Assembly: GCA_963921825.1 (NCBI GenBank)
Contig: OY997591.1
Coordinates: 31,827,825 to 31,891,824, forward strand
Origin: Erodium maritimum
Taxonomy: Eukaryota; Streptophyta; Magnoliopsida; Geraniales; Geraniaceae
Length of the DNA: 64,000 bases
Direction: 5' to 3'
Position numbers and translations under genes: made by a program. Below the pieces are notes generated by a model. It saw only the letters and a list, made by a program, of their open reading frames with translations. It had not been told where the DNA came from and did no database searches. Below, piece after piece: positions 10,473-60,829 of this stretch. The stretch's first letter is position 1. Each line of letters starts with the position of its first letter.

Positions 10473-12501
10473 TGTAAAGACCGGAAAAATTAAAATGGGG
10501 TAATCTTTTGCAAAACGAAACATTGGAGTAAGTTTTTGCAAACAAGGTGTTTAAAGAGAGAAATCAAAAAAAAGGAAGAAGGTGGACTGACCTGGGAGTT
10601 GGGCCAGGCTTGGGCCCAACCAGGAGTGCGCCCCAGGCCCGCACACCAAAGTGGCCCAGAGACGTACGCGGCCCGGTTCATCGCGAGAGAACCCTAGCCT
10701 TTTAAGCCAAAACGCGTCGTTCAGCGTCTTTGGTATGCACGCGGACCGAGACGAGAGGTCGTCTCCTCTCTCGCGAACCAGGACGAACCTTCGCCGTCGC
10801 GCTGTCCTTCCTCTCCGTTCTTCTCCACCTCCACCTCCACCAAGCTCCTCTTCAACTCATACTCCTTCTTCTTTATCTGATGCTTCAACTCGCTGCGAAA
10901 CCCCAAACCCAGAAGAGCCCTCGCTTCCTCCCTCTTCGTTTCGCCGCCAGAACCAGCACGAGTTCGCCGGAGACCCATTCCCTCAAGTTCATCCTCCCCA
11001 CGCGTGAATCGAGCCCCAGCCTGCACTCCTTCTTCTTCCCCGACCTTGTATTATCGGGATTCCAGCTTCCCGAGCTCGATTCGAGCTGTGTGGCTCGGAA
11101 CCCTAGCCGGTGAAACCCACCTCCGTCAGATCTGAGACTTGGGTCGCGTTTCCAGCAACCACATCGCTGTCACGGGGTCACCAGAGTCTCAACGACCGTC
11201 TCCGCCTGTTCTCCCCTCTCCCAAGCGCTCCTTGACACCTTAGACGGCGGCCGGAAACCTCGCGGTCTCGCCGGAGTCAGGCCGAGCTCGAGCTCGTGGC
11301 CGAGCAGACTCTGGGTCAGATAGGTCGTGGGCTGAGAAGGCATGGGCCTGGTCACAGGCCATTGGGCCAGATTTGGCATCGGGCCAGACGAAAGAGAAGA
11401 CGGGCCTTGGGCTCAAACCAAGACTTTGGGTTCGGACACGGGCCGGGTCTGGACTCGGGTCTGGACCGGGCTTGGGTCTGGACCGGGTCGGATCCAGGTC
11501 AATCCAGTTTCAAAGAAAAATGTTTTAAAATCAGATTTAATTAACTGATTTAATTAATTCAAGGTGAGAAATTAAAAGAAAATTTTGGTTAAATCAGAGG
11601 ACCTTTGGACAATTACCGGTTTTGATTGGACTTTCTATTTGTCAAACCTAGACGGGACTTCGCCCGAGAACTTGGGCTTGGAACCGAGTAAAGACGGAGA
11701 GGAAGCTAGCTCGGACTTCGACATCTACGAGAAGATTATTAGAGGAAGACCAAAAGGTAGGGGAAATTCTAACTACTCGAGTATTTCATTACTAGAACGC
11801 ATGTTAGGTTAATAAAATTGGAAAGGTCCTAGATTTGCATATAGGATGCGAATAACTAGAATAATTGTCTTTCAATTACTAATAATCGGATGTGTCTAGA
11901 ATAGAATACATGCTTAGGATGAGAATAACTAGTGTAACTTGCTTTCAATACTTGGGAATTGATTTACTGGTAGAGAGGCCGTGATGAGCCCCCGGATTAG
12001 TTGTTGTGTTAGGTTCACATGCTTGGTTGCTAGTTATTAGGATAATCAAGAGTCTAATGAAACTAGTTTAATTTTATGTTTGATTGATTAAATGTTTACT
12101 TGATTGGTTGAGTGATTGCGTGTTGAAATAGTTGGTCGATTGAACGGATGATCGAGTATGACTGGTTGTGCCAAATGGTACAATCAGGTGATCGATGTAC
12201 CGACGGTTCGTGACAGGTAAGTATACGGTAATTGTGGAGTACTAATGAGTGTATTTGCTGTGATGAAAGTGTGATTCGACAAGTGTTGATTGATGGATAA
12301 ATTATAGTGTGTTTCCCTTATTCTTATTCTTGAAATGTTTGGTTGTTCGATTTGGTACTACACCGGGGGGGGGGGGGGGGGGGGTAATCCGGTGGTGTTA
12401 TGGTCATTGGTGGTTGGAAGATCCTATGGGATTGGAGCCTGAGGGCATCGGTTATTGGATACTACTGGGATTGATTATTGGAGCCTTAGGGCATTGGTTA
12501 T
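10473..12501 (+). repeat. 5' LTR of the gag-only element, truncated at its 3' end
   Basis: Matches the 3' LTR pieces at 19976-20350 and 23580-25000, differing at only a few percent of positions where I compared them (for example 11585-12360). It holds a TATA-like TTTTAAG near 10700, a GGGTC/TCGGG-rich zone (11300-11520) and a 20-G run. Identity with the 3' LTR stops at about 12501, inside a GATTATTGGAGCC repeat; the last kilobase of LTR and the primer-binding site are missing. Confidence 0.8.
12365..12384 (+). repeat. 20-nt G homopolymer in the 5' LTR
   Basis: An uninterrupted run of 20 G follows TACACC. The matching site in the 3' LTR has 25 G (24925-24949). Such a tract can form G-quadruplexes and slips in replication and sequencing. 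Confidence 0.95.
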
Positions 12502-14369: not shown

Positions 14370-17260
14370 TGTCACGCCCCAATTTCAGCGAACCGAAACT
14401 AGGGACGCGAACGTTTAAAAAGTTACAAAACTGAAACCTGTTTTCGTTAAATCACTTTAAAAGTCAGTTTAGTTCCACAAGAGAATATTATTTACATCTC
14501 AAAATAAAAGTCCCACACTTGGACAAAACGAGATACACGTCTCTAGACTCAAAACACCCAGCAACCCGCTTCAAGCTCTTCAAGCTTCAGAAGCTCACCT
14601 AGTCCAGACTACGAACGGTACCTGTAGGAAAATCAGCTAGGGGTGAGCGTTCTCTCACCACCACAGATAACATACTGACTAAGGCATAATTAGTAGACAA
14701 AGTCGATGACACCAACAACGACTCAAAGACACACACACGACCAGTCTTTTCCTCAACTGACTCGACACACGGATACGTTATGTAGACCCCACACTACGAT
14801 CGACGACCTCCTCCAAGACACGACTGACCACACAATACCAAACAAGATCACAAAGGATCGCAAACCGGCTGCTCAGTAACCAATCTCTGTCTCTCGCCCT
14901 TTCCGATCCCAGTCGGTACAGGCGGTCGACCTGTCGCGCAACTTCTCCCGATCCCAGTCGGGAGGCTAACCCACAACCTCTCCGCTTCACCCGATCCCAG
15001 TCGGGTGGTTAGCCACACCCGCGCGTCCTTCCCCCGATCCCAGTCGGGGAGCTAGCCCACAACCCCTCCGCTTCTCCCGATCCCAGTCGGGAGGCTAGCT
15101 ACACCACACAACCTCCACCAGTATCAAGTAACCAATCACAATCACAAACAAGTTCAAACAGACAGTAACGACATCGGTGACAACTCCACATGCACTCAAG
15201 GCCAACAAGACACCAACAACCAAACACAGGTTCAACAACCCTACGGGCCCTCATGGCCGCCCAAGACACCAACAGTAAAGTACGAGTTCACAACCCCACG
15301 GGCACTCACGGCCACCCAAAACACCGAAACGACAACACGGGCTCTCACGGCCACCCAAGACTCAGCAATAAATAACACGGGCTCTCAAGGCCACCAAAAC
15401 TCGACAATAAATAAAACGGGCTCTGAAGGCCACCCAACTCAACAACAAATAACACGGGCTCTCAAGGCCACCCAAACTTAACAACAAATGACACGGGCTC
15501 TCAAGGCCACCCAAACTCAATCAACAAACAACGCACAACAACCTCCGGGCATGGTCATATGCCTCCAGTAAATCAGTTAACGCTAAGTTCTCTGCTCCTA
15601 CGACACTACTAAGTGTCACATGCATTTCCAGTATTCGCTACGTTCCCGTATCATGCATTTCTAATATTCGATAACCTAAATAACCCACGACACCCCGGTG
15701 TCACATGCAATTCTACAGTTAACTTTCCCTAGTCAGGGCCGAGATCCGGCTACTTTTCCCTACCTCGTAAGCAACTCCAAAAGTGCTCCACTAAACCCGA
15801 GATGATCGCAGTCACTCGCCGAGCCTCCCTTTGCCTCGGTCCGCAGCACGATCTAAAAGAACACAGATTTAACTCACTTTTAAACTAGTAGGAATAAGCC
15901 GAAAATTAAATAAACTCAACGCCCAAACGTAACCCCGACAATGTCGATAAAGGACCCTTTAAGGCCCGATTCGCCCGACATGGTGAATCTGCCCGGGTTT
16001 TGTAAATTGCTTTCCGAGGCTCCCCTTCGATCGGAGCCGGACTCTAAATTTAACACGAAGCCCCAAATTAATAACGGTTCCGCCGTTAAGTTAACGGCTA
16101 CGATTTGTCCATTTTAAATTCGACAATTGTCGTTTACACCCGAGCGGGATAAAAGTCGGGTTACGACGGATCGGGTTCGAGCACCCGCGCACCGAACCCA
16201 GGTTTGATCTAAACCCAGTTTAAACCCCCTTTTAACTTAAAACCGTCGTAGAACTCCCTTGCTTTAATTAATTCCGTCTTTGATTTTAAAACAAAACGGT
16301 TTCCTTCCGTTCGTTTCCAAACTCGATATTTTGGTCCAAAACCCTTATAAAGTCGATTTGATTTCGTTTCCCTTTTTCGATTTAACTTAACTCGAGTTTA
16401 AACTTAACAGCCGACTTTCGCTTTAAAACCCGTTTAACCTACCCGATCTAGTTTTAACGATAACCATTAAACAGTTCAGTTTAGACTCCTCCATTTCACA
16501 CTTGAACAGATTCAAAACAAATGTAAAGAACATAAAAACGATATCTTATATTTTGTCGTTCTTTACAATTTCAGATTACAACGTTTACAATAATCTTTTA
16601 GACAAAACTGGATTCATGTTTTTTGTGTTCTGTTCCTTTCCATTTCGGGAGCTCCGTTCCATCCCGACCGGATCTGAACGAACTCGGGAACGGGAAAACA
16701 AAAGACGAAGAACGGGATCGGTTAGGTGCGACCGACCACCGGCGCTGGTCGGTCGAGGTTCCACGGCCGAGAACTAACCGTGAGGAACGGTGGCGGCGAT
16801 GGAGAGCGGCGGTGTACGGCGGTGGACGGCGGTGTACGGCGAGGTTCGCCTTGGGTCCGGACGGCTCGGTCCTGTTCCGGATCTGACGAGCTCGCCGGCG
16901 ACGGTGGGAGCTCGGCTCACGTTAGGGCTCGGGATGGGGAGGTCGGAGACGGTGGTGGCGTGGGGAGCTCGGGACGAAACCGGTGGTGGACGGCCGGTTT
17001 GTGGACGGAGACGGGGACGATGCTGGTCGGAGATGAAGGAGAAGAGAGAGGCAGGGAGGTCGGGACGGTGAAGGCGTGGCTGGCCGGAGCGGTAACGGCG
17101 TCGGGATGGGGGAGAAGAAGACGGGACGAGGGTGGTGAAGACCGGGACGGTGACGGCGTGAAGAGCTCGGCCGGAAAAGGTGGTGGACGGAGCTGGTTCG
17201 GCGAGGGAGGTGAGGAAGAGAGAGAGTCGGATCGGGAGGGAGAGAGAGGATTCTCTGTAC
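14370..17260 (-). mobile_element. Minus-oriented LTR of a related Ty3-gypsy-type family
   Basis: Starts TGTCACGCCCC, the complement of the usual 3' LTR end of this group, and shares long stretches with 20356-23578 (for example around 15560-15700 against 21880-22050). Tandem arrays occur: a roughly 43-bp unit with the hairpin CCCGATCCCAGTCGGG (14890-15100) and a roughly 38-bp unit GGGCTCTCAAGGCCACC (15230-15530). The right boundary is uncertain. The GC-rich frames at 16500-17300 fall in this LTR and are not regarded as genes. Confidence 0.6.
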
Positions 17261-17274: not shown

Positions 17275-17690
17275 CCAGCCGTTGAGAAGCATCTTTAGGA
17301 GACCGCCAGAGCGTGGAAGAACAGGCCGAGGCCGAGTGTCTTCCTAAGGCCGTCAAAGAGTCGTAATACTAAGAGGCAGAGGACCTCAGGATTGTTTCAA
17401 CCACGGACCCATTCCGATGGGACACGACAGGTTGGGGCAGCAGCGTTAGTTGGACCTTCCCCGGTGGCACAGTTTTGTCCTTCGTGCAAACAGTTTGGAC
17501 ATCTAGGCCGGAACTGCCCATGGAATGTTGTATTCACAAACCGTCCTGCAGGTCGGCCTACGAGAGCCGATAAGATAACATGCTCTCACAGCAGCAGATT
17601 CTTCCACCACCACCGCGAGAAGGACTTCTGATTCAGCAGGGCCGAGCATACGCGATTGCCGGGCCCCGAGCTGAGGGACTTGATACCGAT
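17275..17690 (+). pseudogene. gag remnant with CCHC zinc knuckle
   Basis: The translation of 17392-17631 contains CPSCKQFGHLGRNC, a perfect C-x2-C-x4-H-x4-C knuckle (Cys29, Cys32, His37, Cys42 of the 79-residue frame), the RNA-binding signature of retrotransposon nucleocapsid. A short upstream frame starting MDQAPAVEKHL ends in a stop at 17296-17298. The downstream QGRAYAIAG resembles the end of Ty3-gypsy gag. No protease follows. This is the only protein-coding trace of the element. Confidence 0.65.
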
Positions 17691-17699: not shown

Positions 17700-19958
17700 G
17701 CTTAGAGTGCTCGGTTACGATTTACATTGTGGATTGTGTTTTCTAACACTTGAGCTTTACACTTGGCCGTATTGTTAGCGTGGTTATTTTCTGTTGGAAC
17801 GAAATTAAAACTGGTAAACCCTACCCGTATCTTAACACACCGACTAGAGGTGCGGTCGTACCGATTAGTGTCAGTTTGAGTTTGAAAGAGGAGTAACAGA
17901 CCTTGTCGTACTGAAAGTTATTTTCTCTCGTCGAGAGTACTAATCGAGTTTTAAGAACCGATGGGTGAAACAACAGACGTTCATCGAATGTCATCAGCAG
18001 CGAATGCTGAGCAGTGGAAGGCTGCAACCTTGACCAGTAAACGGTCCGACCGGTCACCGGAGATGACCGAGCAACGATAAGATCAGAGTAGCGCAGCGGA
18101 AGCGTGGTGGGCCCATACCCACAAGAGTCGTAATCGACAGCTCCTTCTACCCCTGCTAAAGGATTTAAGTTATGAGATTCGAACCGTCGAACCGTTTTTG
18201 TTTCAAATTCCGTTTAACGAGCGAAAAGTTGCACAAGTGTGTGCCGTACGTAAGAAATTAGATTAGAATGCGCTCCCTACGTTCGTCCCGGAGGGACCAA
18301 ACGGTTTGCCGTCAGTTCACGCGGAACAGGCGAATAACACCGAGAGTTGACCAGACAACTTTCCTAGCGGAGAAGAATACGGAAAACGAGAACCGGGTAC
18401 CAAGGTGTACCTTTGTCAGCAAGAGAAGAAAGATCGCCAAACTTCCCACGAGGAATAAGCATAACCATAAGGCTACGCCATAGAATTGAGAGCACCTCTC
18501 GTTGGAATCCGGCAACGGATAGCCGAAGGCGACTACCACAAGCTTCCAGGCCAGTAACAAGATGGCACCGAATGAAGCGTTGTGTGGTAGGTCGGATTTT
18601 TGTGCCATGCATGAGCACAAGGAAAGATAAGAGTTAATCGTTGTTGGTTTTGAGTTGTTCGAGGAACGATGGAAGGAACCGCGCTAGTTTCTGTACTGTT
18701 CAAATTATTGAGATCTCAGTGCATGATGATTACTCCTTATGGGGTGAATGGGGTGGACTTGACTATAAGTCGTTTTAATCAATAGCTCATGAACGAGTGT
18801 CAGCGATATAAGGATTACCACCAGTTGGAAAAATCCTTGTCAATCGATCTTGGATTATGTTTCGCTGTAGAGTGTGATTATCATACGGTTAGTTTTTATG
18901 TTTTGAAGGACACCTACTTTCGACCAAATGCCAGTAAGAGGTTTTATCGGTCCTTGTTGTTATACGTCGTTCGTCCGACTAGATGTCGGTAGTATTCATG
19001 GTAGTACTGAACCATGCACCGGTTCTGAGAACCGTTGTCTCGTTGATATGATGATTTGGGTGAGACGAATTGTGATGTGTTTTGGTCAGGTGTTGAGAAC
19101 TGGTACCGATGTCAAGAGAATTATCGCGAGTTGGATAACCTTCCCGATTGATCACAGTTAGGTGTTGATGTCTTACCGCGAGTTAGGTTTGTGATGCTTG
19201 ATGTGTGACTGACCCGTATCAGGTTGAGAATCGTGATAAGGTTTAACCGTTGTGACATGCTGCACACGTGTGCCATGCTTAGTATGACATAAGGTTTTTG
19301 ATTAAGTTACGTTTTGAGGCATGCCGCATTTCGACTATATGCTGGTACATTGTACCATTTACTTGATTGAGGTACGTCTAACTTTCCACGAGATGTGATG
19401 AAACGAGCGTTTGTTCCAAACCCCGCAGTGGTTATGAGAACCTTTGATTGGATGATTGCATTTGTGCGTTACTTGCTCGTCTTGTGTGTGTTAGGTCGTG
19501 ACAAGACCGTATTGGCGTTCCAGTGTGAACTATTCGGGAGACGGTTACTAAAGAGAAATTGAGGAGTTACATTCTGCGGATGACTCCGTCCTTGTCCGAT
19601 TTTCGGAGTATTCCGGTAAGACACCCATACCGAAGGTAAATTCCGGTATGGCATGTCTGAACCGAGGTCGTTCTATCCGGTGCAATACCGGTGCCATTGA
19701 GGATTCTGATGAGAAGTATCTACATCGAGGTTGTTGGTGACGGTCCGCCGTCTACACTAACGTTGGATATTGTTATCGGTTGCCAAGATCGTTATCTGGC
19801 ATTCCTCAATATCTGAGGTGGGTGCGATTATCCCTATTGAGTTGCACCTGTTGGTCCACCGGATGTGGTAAACCGGATGGTTGTTCCGAACCGTGCAATG
19901 ATCATGAGATCCATTATCATGAGGAGCACGTTTGTTTTAAATTTCGAGGACGAAATTC
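17700..19958 (+). other. Internal region after gag without pol domains
   Basis: Where protease, reverse transcriptase and integrase should lie there are only short broken frames (17821-18057, 18268-18637, 18789-19161, none with pol motifs) and repeats of the CCGGT type near 19600-19900. A tRNA-derived block lies at 18082-18123. Confidence 0.55.
18082..18123 (+). pseudogene. 5' half of an initiator tRNA-Met embedded in the retroelement
   Basis: The sequence reads ATCAGAGTAGCGCAGCGGAAGCG, then TGGTGGGCCCATACCCACA. It follows plant initiator tRNA-Met from position 1 through acceptor strand, D arm (A-box TAGCGCAGCGG) and anticodon arm (CAT anticodon), with one substitution and one missing A in the anticodon loop. 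The T arm and 3' acceptor strand do not follow. The same 5' end recurs in the second family member at 47809-47831, in matching upstream context. It is in sense orientation, so it is not a primer-binding site. Confidence 0.65.
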
Positions 19959-19962
19959 TTTT

Positions 19963-19975
19963 AAGGGGGGAAGAC
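19963..19975 (+). promoter_or_regulatory. Polypurine tract before the 3' LTR
   Basis: AAGGGGGGAAGAC directly precedes the TG of the LTR, after the ATTTCGAGGACGAAATTC context that is typical of Ty3-gypsy elements. It would prime plus-strand synthesis. Confidence 0.8.
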
Positions 19976-20355
19976 TGTAAAGACCGGAAAAATTAAAATG
20001 GGGTAATCTTTTGCAAAACGAAACATTGGAGTAAGTTTTTGCAAACAAGGTGTTTAAAGAGAGAAATAAAAAAAAGGAAGAAGGTGGACTAATCTGGGAG
20101 TTGGGCCAGGCCTGGGCCCAACTAGGAGCGCGCCCAAGGGCTGCACGCCAAACCGGCCCAGAGACGTACGCGGCCCGGTTCATCGCGAGAGAACCCTAGC
20201 CTTTTAAGCCAAAATGCGTCGTTCATCGTCTTTGGCATGCACGCGGACCGAGACGAGAGGTCCCCTCCTCTCTCGCGAACCAGGACGAACCCTCGCCGTC
20301 GCGCCGTCCTTCCTCTCCGTTCTTCTCCACCTCCACCAAGCTCCTCTTCACCTCA

Positions 20356-23300
20356 ATTTCAGTAAACCGAACTCGGGACGCGAACGTTTTAAAAACATAA
20401 AAACACTTGAAACCCGTTTTCATTAAATCACTTTAAAATACCAGTGTAGTTCAACAAAATAATAATTACAACTTAAAACACGTCCCAACAAGTGGACAAA
20501 AACGAGGTACACGTCACTAGACTCAAAACACCCAGAATCCCGCTTCAAGCTCTTCAAGCTTCAGAAGCTCACCTAGTCCAGCCTACGAACGGTACCTGTA
20601 GGAAAAGCAGCTAGGGGTGAGAGTTCGCTCACCACCACGAATAACAGACTGACTACGGCATAATTAGCAGGCAATGCCGATAACACCAAACAAGGTCAAC
20701 ACCGGGGAACACTGTCCCCAACCCAAGTACTCTGACTGAACATACACCCACTGTTTCCTTCCTTGACCAACTCAACACTCTGACATGCAAGTAGCCCCGA
20801 CACAACGATCACGACCTCTTCCAAGGACTCAAAAGAAACTACGCAACACCAAACAAGATCACCAAGGATCGCACACCAGACAAGATCACAAAGGATCGCA
20901 AACCAGCTGCCAAGAACGCTCACACCCTCCCGAGACTCTAACTCGATCAGGCCAACCCAAGAATGCTTGCAACTTACCGAGACTCTAACTCGTAAGCCAG
21001 CCGGAATATGCTTGCAACTTACCGAGACTCTAACTCGTAAGCCAGCCAAAGAATGCTTGCAACTTACTGAGACTCTAACTCGTAAGCCAGCCAAAGTATG
21101 CTCACAAACCCAAACCACACACGCACGGCCAGGACCCCTTTATTGGCGGGCGGGCCCCCTACCCCGTCTGAACATGCAGACGCGTGTGCTCGTGGACCCC
21201 CGTTTCATGAAGCGGGCCCCCAACCTCAGGTAACCAGAATCACAATCACAATCACAAACACAATCACAAGCAAGTTCAACAACCAGTAACAACACAGGCT
21301 CAACACTCATAGGCACTCATTGCCACCAAGACACCAACAGTAAAACTCGGACTCAACGGCCCCACAGGCACTCACGGCCTCCCAAGACACACCAACAGTA
21401 AAATACGGGCTCAACAGCCCCACAGGCACTCACGGCCTCCCAAGACACCAAAGGTAAAGACACGGGTTCAACGACCCCACGGGCACTCATGGCCACCCAA
21501 AACTCAACAATAAAACACGCTCGCAACTTACCGAGACTCTAACTCGTAAGCCAGCTAAAACGCCAAAGATAAAGACACGGGTTCAACAACCCCACGGGCA
21601 CTCATGGCCACCCAAAACTCAACAATAAAACACGCTCGCAACTTACCGAGACTCTAACTCGTAAGCCAGCTGAAACACCAACAGTAAAGTACGGGCTCTC
21701 ATGGCCACCCAAACACGAATAATAACACAGGCTCTCATGGCCACCCAAGACTCAACAATAATAATACAGGCTCTCAAGGCAACCCAAAACACCAAAAGAT
21801 CAATCAACCTCTGGCTTAACCAAAGCCTCCAACAGTCCTAATATTAACAGTTTCTCAATCAACCTCCGGGCATGGTCATATGCCTCCAGTACTCCTAATA
21901 TCGATAAGTTCACAAACAACCTCCGGGCATGGTCATATGCCTCCAGTAATTCTAATAACGCTAAGTTCTCTGCTCCTACGACACTACTAAGTGTCACATG
22001 CTTTTCTCATATTCGCTACGTTCCCGTATCATGCTTTTCTAATATTTAAATAAATCTACTCAACCCACGACACCCCGGTGTCACATGCAATTCTAATATT
22101 AACTTTCCCTAATCAGGGCCGAGATCCGGCTACTTTTCCCTAACTCGTGCGTGTTCTCCCAAAAGCCAACCACGAGCTCCGGTGATGATCTCAATCACTC
22201 ACCCAGCTTTCCCTTGCCTCGGTCCGTGGCACGATCTAAAAGAACACAAATTAAAGGCACTTAACCACTCGCAGGAATAAACTGAAAACCATTAAACTCG
22301 ATGCCCAAACTTAACCCCGACAATGTCGATCACTCCCAAACTTCCCAATTACTCGACATTGTCGATAAAGGACCCGTAAAGGCCCGATTCGCCCAACATG
22401 GCGAATCTGCCCGGGTTTTGTAAAAGGCCTTCCGGGGCTCCAAAAGCCCCCGTTTTCGTTTCTACGGTCTTAATATAGTTCAAGGGACCCAATGTACTTG
22501 ACGGAATCGAATTCCGACTCCCGAGTCAATTAATTAACGTTTAAAGTTTCCAAAACCCGTTAATTACAACTTCTCCAATTTAAATCCAATTTTCGATTCG
22601 GTTAAGGATAAATGGTCCGGGGAACGTTTTAAACCTCCCGAACACTAAACCCGAGCACCCGAGCACGTGGGCCCCACCCGGCCCAATCTAGTCGTGGGCC
22701 CTAGGGCTTAAATGAGGCTCGGCCACCATGGTGGTGGCCGGCCCTAGCTCCGGCCAGCCACCTCCTATGGTGGCCGGCCACCCCCCATGGTGGTCGGGGC
22801 TTCTCCCGAGCCCTCGGTCGCCGGAAAACGTTCAATCAAGCCTCCAACACCTCTAAAACGTCTCCAACAATTACCCCAACACCAAAACCACCTTAAACTA
22901 ATAGTTTTACCCAAACCCTAACAATTGAAAATCAACAAAACGGGAATCGGTTCGGTGCTTACTCGAGAGGAGAACGAGGGGAACGATGTTGCTCCTTGCC
23001 TATCTTCTCTCTTCTTCTTCTTCTCCTTCTCTCTCTAAACACTCTCTTCCTTTTTCTAACTCAAACAACTAACACATTTTCTATTTTTTTTCTTTTTAAA
23101 CCCATGTGGCTGGCCATGCTTCCCATCCATTCATTTCCCCCCCAAAACTAACACCGCCACTAATTGGACAAGTGGAAAGGTGGGTCCCACACCTTTTGGA
23201 AAATAGATTCGCGAAAAACGGACGTTTCGGGCCTCGAACGGGCACTTTTCCCAAGAAATTACGAAACTTGACGGGCTACAAGGAAATGGCTCAACTAAGA

Positions 23301-23578
23301 CCGCTGCGACGACGGCTAAGCTTTTTGGATCCAAAACGGTCCTCGAATGGACCAAAACGTCACTCGGTTGACTTTTCCAACGCAAAGTCAACATTTCCCA
23401 AATTGGTCAGAAAGTTGCCCTGAGTCCCCTGGAACTCACTTTGGTCAATAACGGGGTCAACTTAAGTCCGGTATGACACTCGGGGTCATTTTAGGTTCAC
23501 TTAACTGTCAGTCTTAAAATTTTTAAATTTTCCTGTTTTTCGCAGGTTTGACTGGCGTTGACCGGGAGTGGTTATTAT
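20356..23578 (-). mobile_element. Nested minus-oriented LTR, related to 14370-17260
   Basis: Shares AATTTCAG..CCGAA.C..GGGACGCGAACG and much of its body with 14370-17260, but lacks the TGTCACGCCCC end. Compared with the left LTR it replaces about 170 bp (10850-11021). It has 51-bp tandem units containing CTTACCGAGACTCTAACTCG (20960-21100, 21520-21670) and GGGCTC..GGCCACCC units (21290-21780). Read on the minus strand it has a TTTAAAAA box and a GA-rich leader (23000-23100). Probably a truncated solo LTR. Confidence 0.6.
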
Positions 23579-25005
23579 AGCCCCAGCCTGCACTCCTTCT
23601 TCTTCCTCGACCTCATATTACCGGGATTCCAGCTTCCCGAGCTCGATTCGAGCTGTGTGGCTCGGAACCCTAGCCGGTGAAACCCACCTCCGTCAGATCT
23701 GAGACGGGAGGCCTTGGGTCGTGTTTCCAGGCAACCACAGCGCTGTCACGGGGTCGCCAGAGTCTCAACGACCGTCTCCGCCCATTCTCCCTTCTCCCGA
23801 TCGCTCCTTGACACCTTAGACGGCGGACGGAAACCTCGCGGTCTCGCTGGAGTCAGGCCGAGCTCGAGCTCGTGGCCGAGCAGACTCTGGGCCAGAAAGG
23901 TCGTGGGCTGAGAAGGCATGGGCCTGGTCACAGGCCATTGGGCCAGATTTGGCATCGGGCCGGACGAAAGAGAAGACGGGCCTTGGGCTCAGACCAAGAC
24001 TTTGGGTTCGGACACGGGCTGGGTCTGGACTCGGGTCTGGACCGGGTCGGATCCGAGTAAACCCAGTTTCAAAGAAAAATGTTTTAAAATCAGTTTTAAT
24101 TAACTGATTTAATTAATTCAAGGTGAGAAATTAAAAGACAATTTTTGGTTAAATCAGAGGACCTTTGGACAATTACCGGTTTTGATTGGACTTTTTATTT
24201 GTCAAACCTAGAGGGGACTTCGCCCGAGAACTTGGGCTTGGAACCGAGTAAAGACGGAGAGGAAGCTAGCTCGGACTTCGACATCTACGAGAAGATTATT
24301 AGAGCAAGACCACAAAGTAGGGGAAATCCTAACTACTCGAGTATTTCATTACTAGAACGCGTGTTAGGTTAATAAAATTGGAAAGGTCCTAGATTTGCAT
24401 ATAGGATGCGAATAACTAGAATAATTGTCTTTCAATTACTAATAATCGGATGTGTCTAGAATAGAATGCATGCTTAGGATGAGAATAACTAGTGTAACTC
24501 GCTTTCAATACTTGGGAATTGATTTACTGGTAGAGAGGCCGTGATGAGCCCTCGGATTAGTTGTTGTGTTAGGTTCACATGCTTGGTTGCTAGTTATTAG
24601 GATATTCAAGAGTCTAATGAAACTAGTTTAATTTTATGTTTGATTGATTAAATGTTTACTTGATTGGTTGAGTGATTGCGTGTTGAAATAGTTGGTCGAT
24701 TGAACGGATGATCGAGTATGACTGGTTGTGCCAAATGGTACAATCAGGTGATCGATGTACCGACGGTTCGTGACAGGTAAGTATACGGTAAGTGTGGAGT
24801 ACTAATGGGTGTCTTTGCTGTGATGAAAGTGTGATTCGACAAGTGTTGATTGATGGATAAATTATAGTGTGTTTCCCTTATTCTTATTTTTGAAATGTTT
24901 GGTTGTTCGATTTGGTACTACACCGGGGGGGGGGGGGGGGGGGGGGGGGTAATCCGGTGGTGTTATGGTCATTGGTGGTTGGCAGATCCTATGGGATATT
25001 GGTTG

Positions 25006-42482: not shown

Positions 42483-45400
42483 TGTAAAGACCGGGAAATT
42501 TAACGGTTTAAATAACGTGTTAGAATGTCAAGGATCGAGAACGGATTGATTATTGGATCAACTTCAAAAAAAAAAAGAAACAGGCCTGGACCAGGCCAGA
42601 CTGGGCCATTCAGCCGGACCAAGCCCATGCTCGGAGTTCACGCGCAAGCCCATCACCAGGCAGGCCCACTCATCCTTAAACCCTACGCTCCTCTTCTCTT
42701 CTGAGCCGCACACACTTCCCGAGGATAACACTCATCTCCCTTCTCGCGTCTCTCTCACGCCTTCATCCTTTCCCCTCGCGAACCAGCTTAGATCTGGTCG
42801 CCGCCGTCAGCGCCTCCGACCTTCCACCACCATCACGTCCCTCTTCCTCCACCCGCGTCTCTTCCTCATCACCTGAAACCACCACCGGCCTCTCTTCCCT
42901 TTTCCTCACGATTTCGCAGGCGAACACCGTCGCCCTTGCGATTCGAGCTCCGCTGTGCCGGATTCGAACAAACCAGCGAAGGTGAGCTCTTGTCCCGACC
43001 AGAACCTTCTTCTCCGTCCATCCTTTTCCCGTTTTTAGCTCGCACGCGAGCGGTGGGTAGTCGAGTTCGACGGGAGGAGTTTCGTCGGAACCATCCTCGC
43101 CCCGGTGAAGCGTTCTCGCCGTCAACTTGTACGGAATGGCTCGGGGTTTCGCACCTTCGACTTCCCCTCACCTTCCCAAGCTCGTGACGCCCTCGCCGCC
43201 GTTGAACCACCCTCGTTTTCCCTGGAGCCACCGCTGCCGCCGTCCACCGCCGCGAGAAGACGCAACCATGCCGGAGTCCCTAACCCTAGCCGCCTCTCTC
43301 CCGTGATTCGAGCAGGGACGTGGGCCAGACGCCGAAGTGGGCCGGACCAATACGCGTGGGCCTTGGGCCAGACGTGATCAGCTGGGCCTTGAGCCCAGGA
43401 AGGACTCGGGTCCGGACCTGGATTCGGGTCGGACCTGGGTCTGGACCGGGTCAGGGCTCTGGATCGGGTCTGGATCGGATTCGGACCTGGATCCGGGTCA
43501 GACTCGGGTCGGGTCAGATCAATTTTAAATAAATGACTATTTTAATTAATTAATTAATTAACAACTTTGACTTAAAATCAGATAACACTTGGACTTAATT
43601 ATTAAATTGGAGAACCGTTACGGGTTGGACCGGGACTGATTCTCGTCCCTTTTGTTAAACTCAGGCTGGACCTCGTACGTGGAGAAGACAGACGTAGGCC
43701 CGGACGTCAACAGCTAGGAGACGCAACGGTCGGCTCTTCAAGAGGTAGGGATTACCTCGAATCCGCTTTATTACGGTTTTACTAGAATGCATATAGGGAA
43801 ACCTAATAAACCGGTTAAAGAACTAGTATGCATATAGGAAACGAACAACTAGCGTAGACGTATCAAACTGTGAACATTTACGATTTCTGTCTTGGGAATT
43901 GTTGTGCTGGTAGAATCGGGTCATGTCGCGCCCGTAGGACTTGTGTGCTGAATGTATCTGTGTATGCCTTTGATGCCTGAACGGCTATTAAATAACGAAC
44001 ACGAAAATGAGTAGAATTGACTAGAGAACGCATGATCAGTGATTTGAGTGCTTTTCCCTATTTTACTTGATATGTGGATTGGGAATGTCGGGGATATCGG
44101 TTAAGCCGGTGGGGTAACCACGTGGAGAGTGGTATCGGTAAGTGATGGTATGTGCCTGTTGGCGGTGTTATTATTGAAGTATGACTGTGGTTGTGAAAGT
44201 GATTATTACTGTTATGTGATAGTTGTATTAAGTGTGTGTCCGAGAGGGTGTCGGTAAGTGATGGTCAGTACGGAACAGTTGTGAGTGTAATTTAAGGGTC
44301 GAGATATTATATTCGGTGTTGCATGTTGTGACTGTACTTGGGCAAGTGTGCCGTGTTTGTGGAGATATAAATCCTTGGTTGTGAAATGGTCAGGTGAGTG
44401 ATAGACAGACGTGATTGTGATTGTGAGTGTGGTTGTGATTGTGAGCGTGTACCTATTGATTGTGGTGGTTGTTGAAATATGTCGGGATCCTGTTTGTGAG
44501 TGTGATTGCGATTGTTTTGATGTGCGGCCGGTAAAGTGTGAGAGAAGTACTTCCGTCAGGTGTATCGTACCTTCCGGCGCGTAATCAGTAGGGTATTGTA
44601 GTTGGGGTACTTGGGTTACATGAGAAAGGTGGTTTCCCTACCTTCCGACTGGGAGTCGGTAAAACGCTGTGTCCTGCGAAGAGGCGATTTCCCTGCCTTC
44701 CGTCGATCGGTAAAACGTTGTGTCGGCGATGAGGTCGACCGCCTATCTTGACTCTGTGTTAGGGAAGTTGCGTGCGGTTACGCCGGGCCGAGAGGGTTGC
44801 TCCCTAGACCGTGCGATGGCTACGGGCCGTTTCATTTTGAATTGCTTTGAATTGACTGAGTACTGTCGTGTTTTGACTTTGGGTGTTCTTCTTTGTTATG
44901 AGTTGCGTGTGACCGTGAATGAATCGATTTGTTTGTCTTTTGGTGAATTCATGTGTGTGGCTTCCGTGTAATTTAAAGTGTCGTAATTGTGGTTGTCCTT
45001 AAGTCGTTTGTGTAGGGGCTTGGGATGTGGAATCTCGGGACAGTTATGGTCGGGTAAAGTGAAGTTTGGTTAAGTTGATTATATGTCTCGTTGTCATTTT
45101 CTCTTTTTAATCGTTAAAAAGTTAGTTTAAAAACGTAAATGGATGTCTGAATTGGATTGTTCCTTTCGTTGTGTGCCTTAGGCGATTGGATGGTGTTGAG
45201 CTGAAGCTAGTATGGGTGGTCGGGTAAACGTCGGGATTAAAAAGGGGTTTATCTTTAAATTGGGTTATGAATCGGTGTTGGTATAGTTGGACATTGAGTA
45301 TCCGAGTTTAAAGAGGGTTATTGGCTTTTATTTGGTTCAAGGTCGTTTTGTGTTAAAACCTTTATTATATTTTTTAAGTATGGGACTGCATTTGTGTGAC

Positions 45401-45736
45401 TTCGAGATAAGGTGGTTTGACGGTTTTCCCTACTGAGCGTCAAGCTCACCCCCCATTTTTACCATGTTTTTCTACAGGTAGTGGTCATGACCTGGAGTTG
45501 AGGACATCGCAGAGCATGGGGCTAGCGAGGGTTCGGGTCTATGCTTATTTATTATTTTCGTAGTGACGAACGGTTATTTCGAACTTCTGTATTTTACTGA
45601 GCGTAGGACTCAGGAATTCTAATACCTTGAACTATTTTATTTACCGTTATCGAACTTCAAGTTTTTAAATTGTTATTATTTAAAATTCCCTAAGTCGCGT
45701 CTCGGGTCCGGTCAATACCGGATTTGGGGCGTGACA
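42483..45736 (+). repeat. Intact 3254-bp LTR
   Basis: Begins TGTAAAGACCGGG and ends CCGGATTTGGGGCGTGACA, matching both ends of the LTR at 19976-27807. It contains CCTTCCGACTGGGAGTCGG hairpins near 44645 and TACTGAGCGTCAAGCTCACC near 45430 (compare 27487). LTRs above 3 kb are unusual. The GC-rich frames at 42553-43532 are LTR leader DNA. Confidence 0.85.
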
Positions 45737-45739: not shown

Positions 45740-45753
45740 TGGTATCAGAGCCC
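45740..45753 (+). promoter_or_regulatory. Primer-binding site for initiator tRNA-Met
   Basis: TGGTATCAGAGCCC lies three bases after the LTR end, complementary to the 3' end of initiator tRNA-Met, the usual primer of plant Ty3-gypsy elements. Confidence 0.9.
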
Positions 45754-47808
45754 AGTTTCATTTTGAAAATTGTTTTCAAAACCTCGGACCGTACGTCAAT
45801 TAGGTGGGTAGAGTTAGGTGGTCTAAGTCGTGGTACTCAGTAACGCAAGTTGGAAACATCCGATGCGTAGAGTTGGAACGACACAAGTCTTGATTGTTTC
45901 ATTGTTTGTTAAGTTTGGATCTTTTATATTACGTCGGTTGCATTGCTCGATTGGTATCCTTGCCCTATTGGCTGTAAGCTACAGTGATCGGTGAAGCCGA
46001 ACGGTTGAGATCGCGATTAGGCTAATGAGCAATGATCGAGCCGTTATAAATTGGTTGTTGAGTAAATCATTTGTTAAGTGTGATGCCACCTTGGCTGGCC
46101 GTTCCATGATTGATAAAGTTGAAGTGTTGACTTATTGAAGTGTTGACTTGTTTAAATTGTCGGTTGTTATTTAAGGATTAAAGTTGAAAGATTGACCCGA
46201 AAGGGGTGTTAATTGAGTAGAGGGTAGAAAGGCCGAGATGAGCCATAGGATTGGCTGTGGTTGCCTCACATGCATTGCTTGCTAGTCTGTAGGATAAATT
46301 AAGAGTCTAATGAAACTAGATAAATTGTATGCTTGAATGATTGAATGAATGCTTGAATGATTGAATGAATGATTGAATGATTAAATGAATGTTTGAGTGT
46401 GATTGTTTGTATGGATTCCTTGTTGTGTGTATTGTTGAACTCGTGGATTTCTAAGTTTGTTGTGATTGGTGTGTGTGAGCCAAGTACTAGAGGGCTCCCT
46501 TTGGATGTTGATTTGTGAAATGTTGTCCCGCGTGCGCGGATGGTTGTTTAAGTTTTCCAACGAGTCATGCCGAAATTTCTGTAAAATTGGAATGTATATC
46601 CTATTATGATTTGACTGCAGCAAATCATGATAGTAGGGATATCAATTGGTTACAACGTAGTTCGGGGACGCCTGAACCGAGTTGTAACGAGATGATATCC
46701 ACATGTATTATTTTGCTACAAGAATAAGCTTTTTCAACCCGTGTTACTAAGTGGACCTGCAATTGTGAAAATTTGAGTTGTGATGTGAATCTGTGATTCG
46801 GTTTGTTCGCGTGTGAACTTGTCACACTGCTGGTTGTACTTGAGTGTTGATTTGATTGCTTGTGAAGCATGTTAATTCCTCGTGTGGTGTTGGTAAACCG
46901 ATTGATTGCGTGTAAGTTTGAAATGTTGTGTGCTATACTTGAGCTTTGGTGTGTGATTAAATGGCGAGACTTGCTGTTCTTCTATGCGTTGGTGTGGTAG
47001 GTTGTGTGTGACGCAGTAGGGTGCGGTGTTTGTACTAGTATTATTACTACTACTATTACTTCGACTATTAAGAGTAAACTATAGGGTTTAAAGGACCGTT
47101 TACGTGGTTGCGGATCTTGTGTAAACGTCAGTTTTTGAGAGAGTTACCTTTAAGAGTTGTTAAGAAACTGAACTTGGGTACGTACCCGTGCGAGGGATAA
47201 TACGACGTGACATCTCAAGGCAGAAGAGGTAAGTCGTTGGGGCACAGGTGCCCGGAGTACTACCACTGGAACGGTGCGGAGGAACAGCACCAACAGGTAC
47301 CGGGCTGCAAAGGGACGGAATATCAGAGATGAAGTATGACGCCAGATTTACGGCATGGGCCAGTTGCACCAGTTTTGGTAGCAGTCAAGGCGAACCGATA
47401 CAAGGGATTCGAGCGAGGGCCGAGCCCAGAGTTTGGATCGAGTTCTCACCCTGATGACTCGGGTGCAGCTTGAGATAGTGGATACGACAACAACCATGGA
47501 ACGAGGTCGCCGAAAGACCGCTGAAGTTCGTGAGACTCGACAACGTTCGAGCAGTCTTGCGAGAGTTCGGGAGATTCGATAATCGAAGGAACGAGGAACC
47601 GCAGGGTTCTCCCGACCGCAGGCCTCGCCGGACGTTCTGAAGCAGACAGATTAAGGAACATCAGTAGTTTACGTCACGTTCGAACGGAGGCCAATGCTTT
47701 CACTTTGCCGGCATCCGGAACATCATATACGAGTGCGGAGCGGCGGAGGACCGCAACAGTACCAGTAAACCGACAGATCGGTCAGGAAAGGTGGCCGGTT
47801 GACGTTGA
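45754..47808 (+). other. Internal region of the second gag-only element
   Basis: Contains CAGTGATCGGTGAAGCCGAA (about 45980), shared with 12700, and TTCGGGGACGCCTGAA (about 46662), shared with 13852. A GAATGATT tandem lies at 46330-46390. No gene is supported. Confidence 0.6.
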
Positions 47809-47831
47809 GATCAGAGTGGCGCAGCGGAAGC
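47809..47831 (+). pseudogene. First 22 nt of initiator tRNA-Met at the element break
   Basis: GATCAGAGTGGCGCAGCGG plus AAGC matches the 5' end of plant initiator tRNA-Met exactly and contains the A-box TGGCGCAGCGG. The upstream 50 bp align with the sequence upstream of the longer fragment at 18082. Similarity stops at 47831, where unrelated DNA begins. Confidence 0.6.
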
Positions 47832-49841: not shown

Positions 49842-50584
49842 TGAAAAATACTCTCATGGAATGTGAGAGACTCTGTTTCCAGACAAAAAAAGAGAGCAAT
49901 CAGAGACTTGTGCAACAAGAAATCCCCCAATTTCATTCTTTTCCAAGAAACCAAAGTACAACAATTGGATCCTCTCTTTCTTAGGGCTTGTGGCTTCAAT
50001 TCTGACTGGATTATTGATAGTATCCCTGCCATGGGATTATCAGGAGGCCTAGCAAATACGTGGAAAAAATCTATCTTTTCAGCTCATCTTGTCAAGAAGA
50101 TAGGCAATATCTTGATCTGGTATGGATAATTCATCTCCTTACAAATCAATTTATGAATTAGTAATGCTTATGATCTTTGAAATGATGCCGCAAGAGCCTC
50201 TCTTCGGTAATCTATATTGGCAGAGGATATCATTACAAGGAACTCTTTGATCATGGGAGGAGATTTCAATGCCATACTTGACTTGCAGAAAGAAACAGAT
50301 CTTCAAAAACTTTCTCTCCAACAACACCATTCTCATTCTTTGTTCATAGCCTGGGGGTCATTGACTTACCTCTAATTGGGGGGAAATTCACATGGTTTGG
50401 AACTCAATCTCAAGCATACAGACTAGACAGATTCCTCATCACTCCCAACCTGCTCAGTCTAATACCAACCCTAAAACAAACCTGTCTCTCAAGGAGTATC
50501 TCAAATCACAAGCCAATAATTATCTCCTGCCCTTCCATTGATTGGGGACCAAAACCCTTTAAATTCATCAAAGCCTGGATTGAC
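49842..50584 (+). pseudogene. LINE-2 ORF2, endonuclease part
   Basis: Starts KILSWNVRDSVS (one extra A shifts it from the nearest ATG at 49843), then FQETK, a GGDFNAILD motif near 50260-50285 and SIDWGPKPFKFIKAWID up to the copia insertion. These are the catalytic landmarks of L1-type endonuclease. Frames shift several times. Confidence 0.7.
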
Positions 50585-50974
50585 TGTTAGTCTTAGTGCC
50601 CGTAAATCAATCCAAAATGTCCAAATGTATTTATCATCGTTAGCAATAAAATTAAAGTGGCTTTATATTACTTATGTGTTGGAGTAATATATCGATGTGT
50701 GATCTGATATATGACCACAATGCGAATAAAACCATAGATCGAGATAGATCACACTCGATGGGTCCCTAGTCAACAAAGCTTCACTAAAAGCGACTAGTAT
50801 GAAAGATGACTCTTTATGGCTTACGTTCTGTTAGTCATTGGAATGAGATTCCAGAGTTTGATCATAGATATCATGTGGGACATGATATTGGACGATCTGC
50901 CCTGAATATGTGCCATAGATTAAGTCATGAACATATTCAGTGTCGTAGCTTGATATTGGACGATCTGCCCTGAA
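50585..50974 (+). repeat. E1 5' LTR fragment ending in a templated 24-bp duplication
   Basis: Bases 50585-50952 match the start of the 3' LTR. A 24-bp copy of 50883-50906 (TGATATTGGACGATCTGCCC plus TGAA) then appears at 50951-50974, followed by E2 gag. About 1.3 kb of LTR and all of E1 up to RNase H are missing. Confidence 0.85.
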
Positions 50975-51254
50975 AGGCGCTATCAAATATGTACGAAAAG
51001 CCGTCTGCATCAAACAAGGTATATTTGATTCGTCTATTAGTTAACACGAAGATGAGGGAAGGTGCTAATGTTACTGATCACGTGAACGAATTTAATACGA
51101 TACTATCTAGATTAGTATCGGTGGACATTAAATTCGATGATGAGGTACAAGCCCTTTATTGCTGTCTTCGTTACCTGATAGCTGGTCAGGAACCGTCACA
51201 GCAGTTAGTAGTTCGTCTGGATCTACTAAGCTGTCGTTCTAGGGGATAAGAGAC
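50975..51254 (+). pseudogene. Copia E2 gag, truncated and frameshifted
   Basis: Reads NMYEKPSASNKVYLIRLL, then HVNEFNTILSRL and FDDEVQAL, the conserved core of the copia gag (UBN2 family). A frame change near 51150 and a TAG at about 51241 separate it from the polyprotein frame. The N-terminal part of gag, the 5' LTR and the primer site of E2 are absent. Confidence 0.75.
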
Positions 51255-54200
51255 TTGATTCTTGGGGAAGATATTCGTAGAAGGAATTCTGGAGAATCGT
51301 CAGGCTCCGTGTTGAACGTGGACGGAAGAGGTAGGAATTATGAAAGGGGTAAGAACAAAGGGCGAGGAAGATCGAAGTCCAGAAGGAGAGGACAATCTAA
51401 GAGCAAAGCAGACGTGACTTGCTATAATTGTCAACAAACTGGCCACTTCAAGAGTCAATGCCCGAACCCAAAGAAGGAAAGAAAGGAGAACAACTCGGTG
51501 AATGCGACAGAAGAATTTGAAGATGATGCTTTGATCTGTTGTGTAGAAAGCCCGGTTGAGTCATGGATCATGGATTCAGGTGCTTCTTTCCATACTACCC
51601 ATTATAAAAATATGCTAGTGAATTTTAGACCTATAAAAGGTATAGTTCATCTAGCCAATGATGAGACGGAAGAAATTGCGGGCATAGGAGATGTGAATCT
51701 CAAAAGTCCCATGGGTACAATTTGGACGTTAAAAGATGTAAGGTATATCCCTACCATAAGGAGAATGTTGATCTCTGTAAGTCATCTGGACAACTTGGGA
51801 TACGGTATAACCTTTAAAAACGGCCAATGGAAGGTATCAAGAGGAAATTTGATTATTGCTCGAGGATGGAAGAGAGGAACTTTGTACATGGCGGAGATGC
51901 CAGTGGAAGAGGTTAATGCAGTTACTGATGGGCCTGATCCTTCAACTCTATGGCACCAACGACTTGGGCACATGAGTGAGAAAGGAATGAAGATGTTAGC
52001 TTCAAAGGGGAAGATTCCAGAACTGAAGAATGTGAAGGTTAGTTTTTGCGAACCATGTGTGTTCGGAAAGCAGAAACGAGTTAGCTTTGCAAAGTCAGGG
52101 AAACCTCCTAAGGCAAAGAAGCTGGAAATGGTGCATTCAGACGTGTATGGACCTACAAAAGTTCCATCCATTGGAGGATCTCGCTACTATGTCACCTTCA
52201 TTGATGACTCCACAAGAAAGGTATGGGTTTACTTTCTAAAGCACAAGGATGAATTTTTTAATACCTTTAAGAAGTGGAAAGCTGCTGTTGAGAATGAAAC
52301 TGACTTAAAAGTGAAGTGTTTAAAGTCTGACAATGGTGGTGAGTATAGTAGTGATGAGTTTATTGATTATTGTGCTGAGCATGGTATAAGGATGCTAAAG
52401 ACTGAGCCTGAGACGCCCCAGCATAATGGTGTTGCTGAGAGGATGAATAGAACGCTGAACGAGAGGGCGAAGAGTATGAGGATTCAAGCAGGATTGCCTA
52501 AAAGGTTTTGGGCAGACGCAGTGAGCACAACAGCATACCTCATCAATCGTGGACCCTCAGTTCCTTTGGGATTCAAGATTCCTGAAGAAGAATGGCGTGG
52601 AAAAGAGGTAAATCTTCAACATTTGCGAGTTTTTGGTTGTGTTTCTTATGTGAGAGTAAAGGATTCCGATAGAGACAAGCTTGATCCAAAAGAAAAGAAG
52701 TGTGCATTCATTGGCTATGGATCTGATGACATGGGGTATAGATTCTGGGATGAGTCAAAGATGAAAGTCATCAGAAGCAGAGATGTCACATTCTGTGAAA
52801 GCGCTATGTACAAGGATCGCTTGAGTGTGGAGCAAGATATCACTAAAGAACCCGAAGGCAAGGAAGAAGCAATGTTGGAAGATATTACAATAGAAGATGT
52901 TACAGGCAGCAGTGAGAGTCATCTACAAGAAAATAATGAGGAGATACTACCGGCTACCCCAGTAGCTGAAGTGAGGAGATCGAGTAGAGTTTCAAGACCT
53001 CCAGAACGGTTCTCTCCATCACTACATTATCTGTTGTTGACTGAGAATGGAGAGCCTCAGTGTTATACAGAGGCAGTTCAAATGGATGATTCGATTAAGT
53101 GGGAGTCAGCCATGGATGAAGAGATGAAATCTCTTGAAAAGAATGAGACTTGGTCATTGACTAAGTTACCGGCTGGGAAAAAGGCTCTACAAAATAAATG
53201 GGTGTTCAGGGTCAAGGAAGAACATGATGGTAGCAAGAGGTACAAGGCAAGGTTAGTAGTCAAAGGCTTTCAACAGAAGAAGGGGATTGACTACAACGAT
53301 ATATTCTCTCCAGTAGTCAAGATGACTACTATCAGGCTTGTGTTAGGTATCGTGGCTGCAGAGGATCTTCATCTAGAGCAACTAGATGTGAAGACCGCGC
53401 TCTTACATGGTGATCTTGACGAAGATATTTATATGGTACAACCAGAGGGTTTCCAGAGAGCTGGGAGTGAAGACCTAGTTTGCAAATTGCAGAAAAGTTT
53501 GTATGGTCTGAAACAAGCACCAAGACAGTGGTACTTGAAGTTTGACGATTTTATGATGAGGAGTGGATACTCGAGATGTGTCATGGATCATTGTTGCTAT
53601 GTCAAGCATTTCAATGGATCCTACATCATATTATTATTGTACGTTGATGACATGTTGATTGCAGGATCCAACATGGTAGAAATCAACAAATTGAAGAGAC
53701 ATATGTCTGAAGAGTTTGAGATGAAGGACTTAGGCGCAGCGAAGCAAATACTCGGAATGAGCATCAATAGGGATCGATCTGATGGAAGTTTAAAGCTATC
53801 TCAAGAGAAGTATATTGAGAAGATCTTGAACAAGTTCAGTCTCCAAGATGCTAAGACAAGAAGTACGCCGTTGGGAGGTCACTTCAAACTCACTCGAGAA
53901 CAGTCACCTAAGACGGATAAAGACAAGGAAGAAATGGCTAAAGTCCCGTACGCATCAGCAGTGGGCAGTTTGATGTACGCAATGGTTTGCACAAGGCCAG
54001 ACATTGCACATGCAGTGGGAGTTGTTAGTAGATTCATGTCTAATCCTGGGAGAGAGCATTGGGAAGCAGTCAAGTGGTTGTTTCGCTACTTGAAAGGCAC
54101 TTCAAAGGTTGCACTACATTTCAAGAAGAAGGATGTAATCTTAGAAGGGTTTTCTGATGCAGACTTAGGTGGATGTTTGGACACAAGGAAGAGTACTACA

Positions 54201-55058: not shown

Positions 55059-55691
55059 CATTCCTCTCAGCAAGACTCAGTGTCCTAAGACACCTGATGA
55101 GCTGAAAAGGATGATGCGAATCCCATGCGCCTGGAGGCGGGATTGATCATATATGCCATGACATGTACGAGGCCGGACGTCTCGTAAGCCTTATGTTGTA
55201 CCAGTAGACACTAGTTTTCCAAGACAAATCCAGATGACTTTAAAAGTTAGTCAGGATATGTGTTTGCGCTGAATGGCGGAGATTTAGCTGGGAGAGCGTA
55301 AAGTAAGATACCGTCGCCGAATCTACGACAGAGGCCAAGTACATGGATGTTGCAGAAGCAGCTAAGGAGGCTATGTGGATTTGGATATTCACGGCAGGGT
55401 TGGGTGTAATTAAAAACTCATTTAGCCCGGTGAATCCATTTTACGACAACACAAGGGCCATTGCGCAAGCTAAAAGCCCAGATCGCATAACAAATCCAAA
55501 CATGTACTACGTCGTATCCACCTCATCAGAGAAATACTGAACCGAGGTGAAGTGAAGATAACCTATATTGCAACAGATGATAACATAGTCAACCCTTTGA
55601 CTAAGGCTTTATCGCTGCATAAACATGTTAGTCATGTAAAGTCGATGGGGACATATTGGAGTTTAGATTGGAACTAGGGCAAGTGGGAGAT
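55059..55691 (+). pseudogene. Copia E1 RNase H fragment and 3' untranslated region
   Basis: Shifting frames give YAMTCTRPDV, SGYVFALNGG, STTEAKYMDVAEAAKEAMWI and DNTRAIAQAKSP, the end of a copia polyprotein of a different lineage from E2. A polypurine tract leads into the E1 LTR. Not functional. Confidence 0.65.
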
Positions 55692-60475: not shown

Positions 60476-60755
60476 ATTCTGGCTCCTCTCACTCTCTGGT
60501 TCACTTGGTTGGCTAAGAACAATATAGTATTCAAAAACACCTCCAAAGCAATCTCTGAGACAGTTGCAAAAATTCAGAACTACTTTTACAACATAACCAG
60601 GGCATCCTTCAACAAGAAAAATCATTCCTTTCCCTATTCGGATTGGATCAATTCTCCTCTATCATGCATCAAGTCTAAACTTGTTTGATCCTTGTACAAT
60701 GACTCACTCAAGTTCTGATAGGTTGAAATTTTCTTAATGTTAATGTGTTTTTTTT
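60476..60755 (+). pseudogene. LINE-2 ORF2 C-terminus and 3' end
   Basis: ILAPLTLWFTWLAKNNIVFKN, the usual W..W..RN..VF end of plant LINE ORF2, continues to a stop at 60686-60688, followed by a short AT-rich 3' region. Confidence 0.65.
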
Positions 60756-60829
60756 GTTAAATCAAAACCTCTCTAGCGCTACAGTAACTCCACTGTAGAT
60801 CTTCATCAGCCTCATCAACATCTGCAGCC

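Follow-up and report, generated by a model that had tools for sequence, protein, structure and literature searches.

A sense copy of the 5' domain of initiator tRNA-Met lies at the gag-protease junction of a large Ty3/gypsy retrotransposon family in Erodium maritimum

Results

Two elements in the window carry a sense piece of initiator tRNA-Met

The window, by which we mean the whole 64,000-nt stretch of DNA analyzed here, holds two long terminal repeat (LTR) elements, A and B, whose features are collected in Table 1. The frames of both elements that were scanned gave no hits to reverse transcriptase (RT) or integrase, and the gag remnant of element B gave no Pfam match to gag. Two related insertions interrupt element A (14370-17240, beginning TGTCACGCCCC, and 20356-23578); both resemble inverted LTR sequence and are 68 to 77% alike in pieces. 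Elsewhere in the window lie a copia-type element (51243-54602), with RVT_2, integrase core, and zinc knuckle in one open frame of 1,119 amino acids and bounded by repeats at 50582-50952 and 55689-56059 that are 96.5% identical, and LINE-like pieces (58675-63946), where RVT_1 (below cut-off), RRM_1, and Exo_endo_phos hits fall in separate open frames.

Table 1. Features of elements A and B in the window. L044 is a better-preserved copy elsewhere in the genome.
Feature	Position	Strand	Basis and remarks
Element A, 5' LTR	10473..12432	+	starts TGTAAAGACCGG (motif); 3' limit approximate; pairs with 19975-20355 (93.3%) and 23579-24997 (94.9%)
Element A, decayed gag zinc knuckle CPSCKQFGHLGRNCP	17475..17530	+	translation; Pfam zf-CCHC weak (E 0.036), below cut-off
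Element A, homolog of the L044 stretch from gag tail through block to protease start	18001..18266	+	blastn, 70.8% over 274 columns, E 4e-36
Element A, sense tRNA-iMet block	18082..18125	+	letters 1-43 matched well; G9A; one base missing near anticodon
Element A, likely polypurine tract	19957..19975	+	read from sequence; adjoins 3' LTR
Element A, 3' LTR, first part	19976..20355	+	repeat pairing and motif; then insertion up to about 23578
Element A, 3' LTR, second part	23579..24997	+	94.9% to 11012-12432
Element B, 5' LTR, TGTAAAGACCGG...GGGGCGTGACA	42483..45736	+	limits inferred from motifs
Element B, primer-binding site TGGTATCAGAGCC	45740..45752	+	complementary to initiator tRNA-Met 3' end
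Element B, broken gag remnant	47210..47735	+	translations by eye; corresponding L044 flank aligns to intact gag
Element B, sense tRNA-iMet letters 1-22, whole remnant of block	47810..47831	+	22/22 identical

An earlier reading made from the sequence alone had proposed that 18082-18123 follows plant initiator tRNA-Met and that a second family member carries its first 22 nt, and both proposals held. Letters 1 to 43 of the tRNA aligned to 18082-18123 with identity at 41 of 43 columns, the two exceptions being a mismatch and a gap (score 74), while 200 shuffled versions of the tRNA, tried on both strands, scored at most 34; the piece in element B matched letter for letter (Table 1). The query was a plant initiator tRNA-Met sequence that is identical to the genome's own gene over the first 49 letters. 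When we searched the genome (763 Mb, 40 contigs), we found this gene in 10 places as one identical 71-letter sequence, so the match is to the host's own initiator tRNA-Met. The query sequence also agrees with a 19-mer, ATCAGAGTGGCGCAGCGGA, which is identical to initiator tRNA-Met letters 1 to 19 and is given as a predicted novel miRNA (tae-N11) in a table of a wheat study (PMC5411081); tae-N11 is probably a tRNA fragment.

The flanks 5' of the two blocks align as well (73.8% over 103 columns, block included), as had been claimed for the 50 bp upstream of both. In relatives retrieved by the upstream flank of element B, the block extends to letters 42 to 45, and the block of element B therefore ends at letter 22 because this copy is broken there. 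At the level of the family, the block comprises tRNA letters 1 to about 45 and begins at letter 1 of the mature tRNA in every type. Since it runs past the anticodon arm, the block is not cut in the anticodon loop, and its description as a 5' tRNA half had to be given up.

ARAGORN found no tRNA in the window, and Rfam gave no match in the window at gathering scores and none in the two block regions at E values up to 1. We also considered an origin from a whole tRNA, since the DNA after the block of element A weakly resembles the tRNA 3' half (13/28, p about 0.056), and rejected it because relatives show decayed protease sequence there. Neither viral nor prokaryote contigs contained a match to the block patterns, and the gag piece had no relatives in the viral contigs searched. 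A looser block pattern matched once in one viral contig, in what reads as coding sequence and not as tRNA, presumably that of a phage polymerase; this match was set aside.

The block is a feature of the whole family

Had most family copies lacked the block, the sequence-only reading would have failed. We queried the genome with the upstream flank of element B without the block, and all 37 of the 37 copies retrieved carry it; 40 places were scored, the rest being element B itself, one locus that also has the block, and one match that ends short of it. The claim that the tRNA piece was already present in the ancestor of elements A and B is supported. The 40 A-type places that were scored, among them the one in the window, also align across the block without exception, with a query that contained it and 1,787 candidates at first look.

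The 5' junction of the block, searched as a 22-base pattern (GATGAG plus tRNA letters 1 to 16, up to 3 mismatches), matched 1,949 places genome-wide, while a reversed control matched none. Among 20 places listed from exact junction matches, 16 hold the whole block; in three the block ends near letter 30, and in another it is cut near letter 20. The three that end near letter 30 (L131, L137, and L140) are of a further type, in which the sense block is followed by different downstream sequence. Altogether, the block is a family feature, inherited by a large retrotransposon family.

The block replaces the protease active-site region

Better-preserved copies place the block between gag and protease. 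In L040 and L046, an open frame runs from the block into the protease, where Pfam RVP_2 (E 2e-27 and 2e-26) begins at profile position 47, directly after the block. L044 has a weak RVP_2 match (E 0.066); counted from the block, its RVT_1 match spans +464 to +1247 and its Integrase_H2C2 match +1998 to +2253. The order protease-RT-integrase, as in Ty3/gypsy elements, is thus found in block-bearing copies, which may belong to the Tekay/Del clade. The sequence-only reading had called the family gag-only, which does not agree with the pol sequence in L038 and L044. Element A retains the gag-block-protease arrangement of L044 in decayed form (Table 1) and is gag-only in appearance alone.

Using a protease query, we examined 30 of the 150 loci scored. 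Twenty-two lack the block and have the usual active-site region, in which the codons of DTG are intact in 16 and altered in the rest; in the remaining eight, L044 and L040 among them, the block replaces the active-site region. In 13 of 16 loci, intact gag could be aligned with the gag flank of L044 at 58 to 61%, and the alignment ends about 360 nt before the intact DTG. Together, these positions indicate that the block stands in for the second zinc knuckle, the linker, and the DTG, about 360 nt in all. The block, its junctions, and the missing gag-pro segment are seen directly in these copies. The protease part of P-type copies lies near that of the intact lineage (net divergence 0.010 to 0.037 by codon position), while the gag flank of L044, itself P-type, is only about 60% alike, suggesting that block elements are probably mosaics formed through recombination with intact relatives.

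The primer-binding site is separate, and two loci show unusual tRNA junctions

In element B and nine block-bearing loci, the LTR end GGGGCGTGACA (or a sequence near it) is followed by TGGTATCAGAGCC, in a few cases with one changed letter. This LTR-adjacent primer-binding site (PBS), complementary to the 3' end of the initiator tRNA as in Ty3/gypsy elements, lies 1.2 to 2.1 kb upstream of the block. Since the block is also in sense, it is not the PBS, just as the earlier reading had stated.

Two loci join the tRNA to element sequence differently. In L036, the LTR end is followed by TGGT, tRNA letters 1 to 52 (one change), and then leader, which places sense tRNA exactly at the PBS. This junction is the sole exact one in the genome; the three places within two mismatches of it, one of them L045, have GGG or GAG before the tRNA, like block copies. 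In L037, gag flank is followed by tRNA letters 1 to 52 (one change) and leader, so that it holds letters 46 to 52, which are absent from the block; it is the only one of its kind among 41 places. Since the acceptor strand ATCAGAG and the T-stem CCTGG are common to tRNA and PBS, the growing minus strand could cross into the tRNA by way of the T-stem and rejoin the PBS through letters 1 to 7. The two junctions favor capture by template switching onto the primer tRNA, as the sequence-only reading had supposed, and it is from them that we infer the mechanism itself.

We also observed initiator tRNA in antisense. In L025 and L029, near position 1495, the LTR end GGGGCGTGACA is followed by antisense tRNA that continues far past the 18-nt PBS, in L025 through the full 71 letters and a further CCA. 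L026 and L030 to L035 have comparable antisense tRNA ending in CCA beside other, possibly LTR, DNA. A genome search allowing up to 3 mismatches gave 49 places, some of which are the tRNA genes themselves. The stretches in these nine loci look like integrated copies of the whole primer tRNA.

The block lags behind its flanks between lineages

Decay of the block at the same rate as its flanks would have counted against the sequence-only reading, and the answer differed with the level of comparison. Within the P group (6 copies, found via the protease), decay was equal, with values of 0.092 for the block and 0.092 and 0.086 for the adjoining 60 bases. In the A group (18 copies), the block was slightly lower (0.040 vs 0.047 and 0.058 in the adjoining 42 bases) and ranked third lowest of 92 alignment windows, with neighbors at 0.035 to 0.055, all within the query. 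In the B group (37 copies), it was lower, at 0.105 vs 0.12 to 0.14 upstream, which lies inside the query, and 0.17 to 0.25 downstream; without CpG sites the values were 0.096 vs 0.143, and when 45 other columns were drawn at random 2,000 times, no draw was as low as the block. We discounted a set of 11 copies picked by the tRNA query, which showed zero block difference, since their selection was biased.

Between lineages, on the other hand, the block clearly lagged. Net divergence in block vs flanks was 0.000 vs 0.086 and 0.058 between B and P, 0.046 vs 0.243 and 0.368 between B and A, and 0.043 vs 0.208 and 0.328 between P and A. Near-fixed differences numbered 2 of 45 block positions vs 40 of 120 flank positions between B and A (p 5e-5) and 2/45 vs 34/120 between P and A (p 6e-4); the B-P comparison (0/45 vs 8/120, p 0.11) is not significant alone. 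The block has therefore hardly changed in propagating lineages, while the flanks differ by 20 to 50% between lineages.

Among junction-picked copies, block divergence (letters 17 to 45) was 0.104, 0.134, 0.131, and 0.126 at flank divergences of 0.08, 0.16, 0.25, and 0.35, with a flat slope of 0.015, in the 16 of 20 that have whole blocks (L131, L137, L140, and L144, where the block is cut, were left out). Such a plateau is expected if change comes mainly after insertion. With all 20 copies, block divergence rises across the flank bins (0.073, 0.134, 0.125, and 0.193; correlation 0.53), and overall it was 0.158 (letters 17 to 45) vs 0.283 to 0.378 in the flanks. In the B group, the retention index was 0.20 to 0.24 for the block and 0.33 and 0.54 for the flanks; block variants there look homoplasic and not clearly reset.

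Discussion

We propose that these Ty3/gypsy elements captured the 5' domain (letters 1 to 45) of initiator tRNA-Met, their own primer, in sense during reverse transcription. The growing minus strand would have departed from the genomic RNA where the protease gene begins and been extended on the packaged primer tRNA as far as letter 1, its mature 5' end. It would then have returned to the genomic RNA within gag, immediately past the first zinc knuckle, so that some 360 nt carrying the second zinc knuckle and the catalytic protease DTG would be lost. The block lineage spread afterwards, as its 1,949 matching junctions show, and would need protease activity in trans. Recurrent copy-choice with the packaged primer tRNA, which would reset the block each time, may then be what most likely keeps it. 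We consider it reasonably probable that the block came from the primer tRNA and is kept mainly by such re-copying, with selection at the nucleotide level as a close rival; of the two, we rank re-copying ahead by a small margin. More tentatively, the internal copy may be rewritten from the packaged tRNA and not conserved by selection at all, which would make the host RNA a heritable template, in a manner comparable to the PBS although the copy is in sense and as much as 2 kb from it.

Re-copying would account for constancy at all positions without any need of function. Against this, the unique L036 junction and the single L037 among 41 places show RT reading the tRNA as a template only as rare events. 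Frequent resetting should also have repaired the one-base loss and the G9A change that A-type copies retain, and the blocks shortened to near letter 30 or letter 20 speak against it as well. In addition, base modifications of the mature tRNA should hinder copying.

The same origin could have been followed by selection on the RNA, with the D arm and anticodon arm imitating a tRNA to aid packaging, recruitment of the primer, or recoding between gag and pro, and we regard this as a possible though less probable account. The block is conserved along lineages at the nucleotide level, and the D-stem and anticodon-stem pairs are still paired in 97 to 100% of cells, but such pairing is expected from conservation alone. 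A closing stem between the two flanks pairs in 76% of cells compared to 41 to 58% when slid, and it includes one G-C to A-U double change between lineages. On the other hand, its pairing drops to 57% of cells among A-type copies, its two sides are purine-rich and pyrimidine-rich coding DNA, and five stretches showed no unusual fold stability (z -0.92 to +0.98), with folds that differ. The closing stem is thus only suggestive as an RNA structure.

It is improbable that the block is kept as a peptide. Read from ATC, it encodes IRVAQRKRGGPITHR, which could link gag to the remainder of pol within a single open frame; this frame is open for 35 to 184 amino acids in 17 copies and in L044 extends from the zinc knuckle into the protease. 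In L038, L040, L044, L046, L049, L063, and L072, it is open for 84 to 184 amino acids into the protease, compared to 8 to 68 in the other two frames, but another frame is longer in L047 and L073. Selection on the peptide is disfavored by the A lineage, which lost the frame through the one-base deletion and yet differs little in the block. Moreover, the B and P groups show no near-fixed difference anywhere in the 45 block positions, even at synonymous ones, and 9 of the 12 variants seen in at least 3 of the 37 B-group copies change an amino acid (as read from counts, much of which is post-insertion decay).

We likewise doubt that a SINE or tRNA gene was inserted by DNA-level or LINE-mediated events and trimmed later. 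SINEs often have tRNA heads, and Kojima (PMC10886601) proposes SINE insertion for tRNA-bearing TRIMs, but here only letters 1 to 45 are present, without the B-box half; the flanks on both sides are gag and protease sequence in place of a SINE body and tail; and the gag-pro junction deletion coincides with the block. Least probable is a Pol III unit in which the A-box of the block starts a short transcript, a role that the sequence-only reading had entertained, since, despite A-box consensus matches at 18089 and 47817 and TTTTT at 18195 in element A, the block ends before the B-box, no B-box-like site in the two scanned plus-strand stretches comes closer to the consensus than one position off, the GGTTCGAACC found in some A copies falls in decayed protease sequence, and several better-preserved copies hold the block inside an open gag-pro frame.

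Capture from the primer tRNA, followed by re-copying, remains the reading that we prefer. To our knowledge, the one part of the primer tRNA that routinely marks LTR elements is its 3' end, at the PBS. Here the 5' domain has been written into the coding region, where it replaces the protease active-site region and is inherited, with 1,949 matching junctions. One genome suffices to ask whether the primer tRNA is also a template often enough to reset element DNA. For annotation, our findings serve as a warning that tRNA-like hits can fall inside gag-pol. We found no report of a primer-tRNA piece in gag-pol among the best matches in the open-licence literature.

Several known systems offer partial likenesses. 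In Drosophila copia and yeast Ty5, a fragment of the initiator tRNA 5' region is reportedly the primer paired to the PBS, whereas the block is tRNA copied in sense, far from the normal 3'-end PBS. Element A as it stands, with gag remnants, LTRs, and no RT found, resembles TR-GAG elements, but its family has pol-bearing members (L038 and L044), so that gag is not the sole coding domain, and element A keeps a decayed protease. In retroviral patch repair, a switch of template to packaged host RNA leads to host sequence being inserted where the junction is nonhomologous (PMC4997597); the passages excerpted from that source give no tRNA case, while the insert here is the primer tRNA and is inherited by a large family. 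The nearest known system is Helenus (TRIMp3), described in Kojima 2024 (PMC10886601) as very short elements whose LTRs hold a tRNA-like sequence with both an A and a B box. The block elements, in contrast, are long and gag-pol-related, and they carry only the 5' domain of the primer tRNA itself, without a full B-box in the two stretches scanned, in an internal coding region 1.2 to 2.1 kb after the PBS. Cassandra and Ajax, described in the same paper (PMC10886601), are likewise LTR elements that captured a piece of Pol III RNA; they have a 5S rRNA promoter in the LTR, while the block family has no complete Pol III promoter and holds its piece at the gag-pro junction. Altogether, the block family represents a variant of small-RNA capture by LTR elements.
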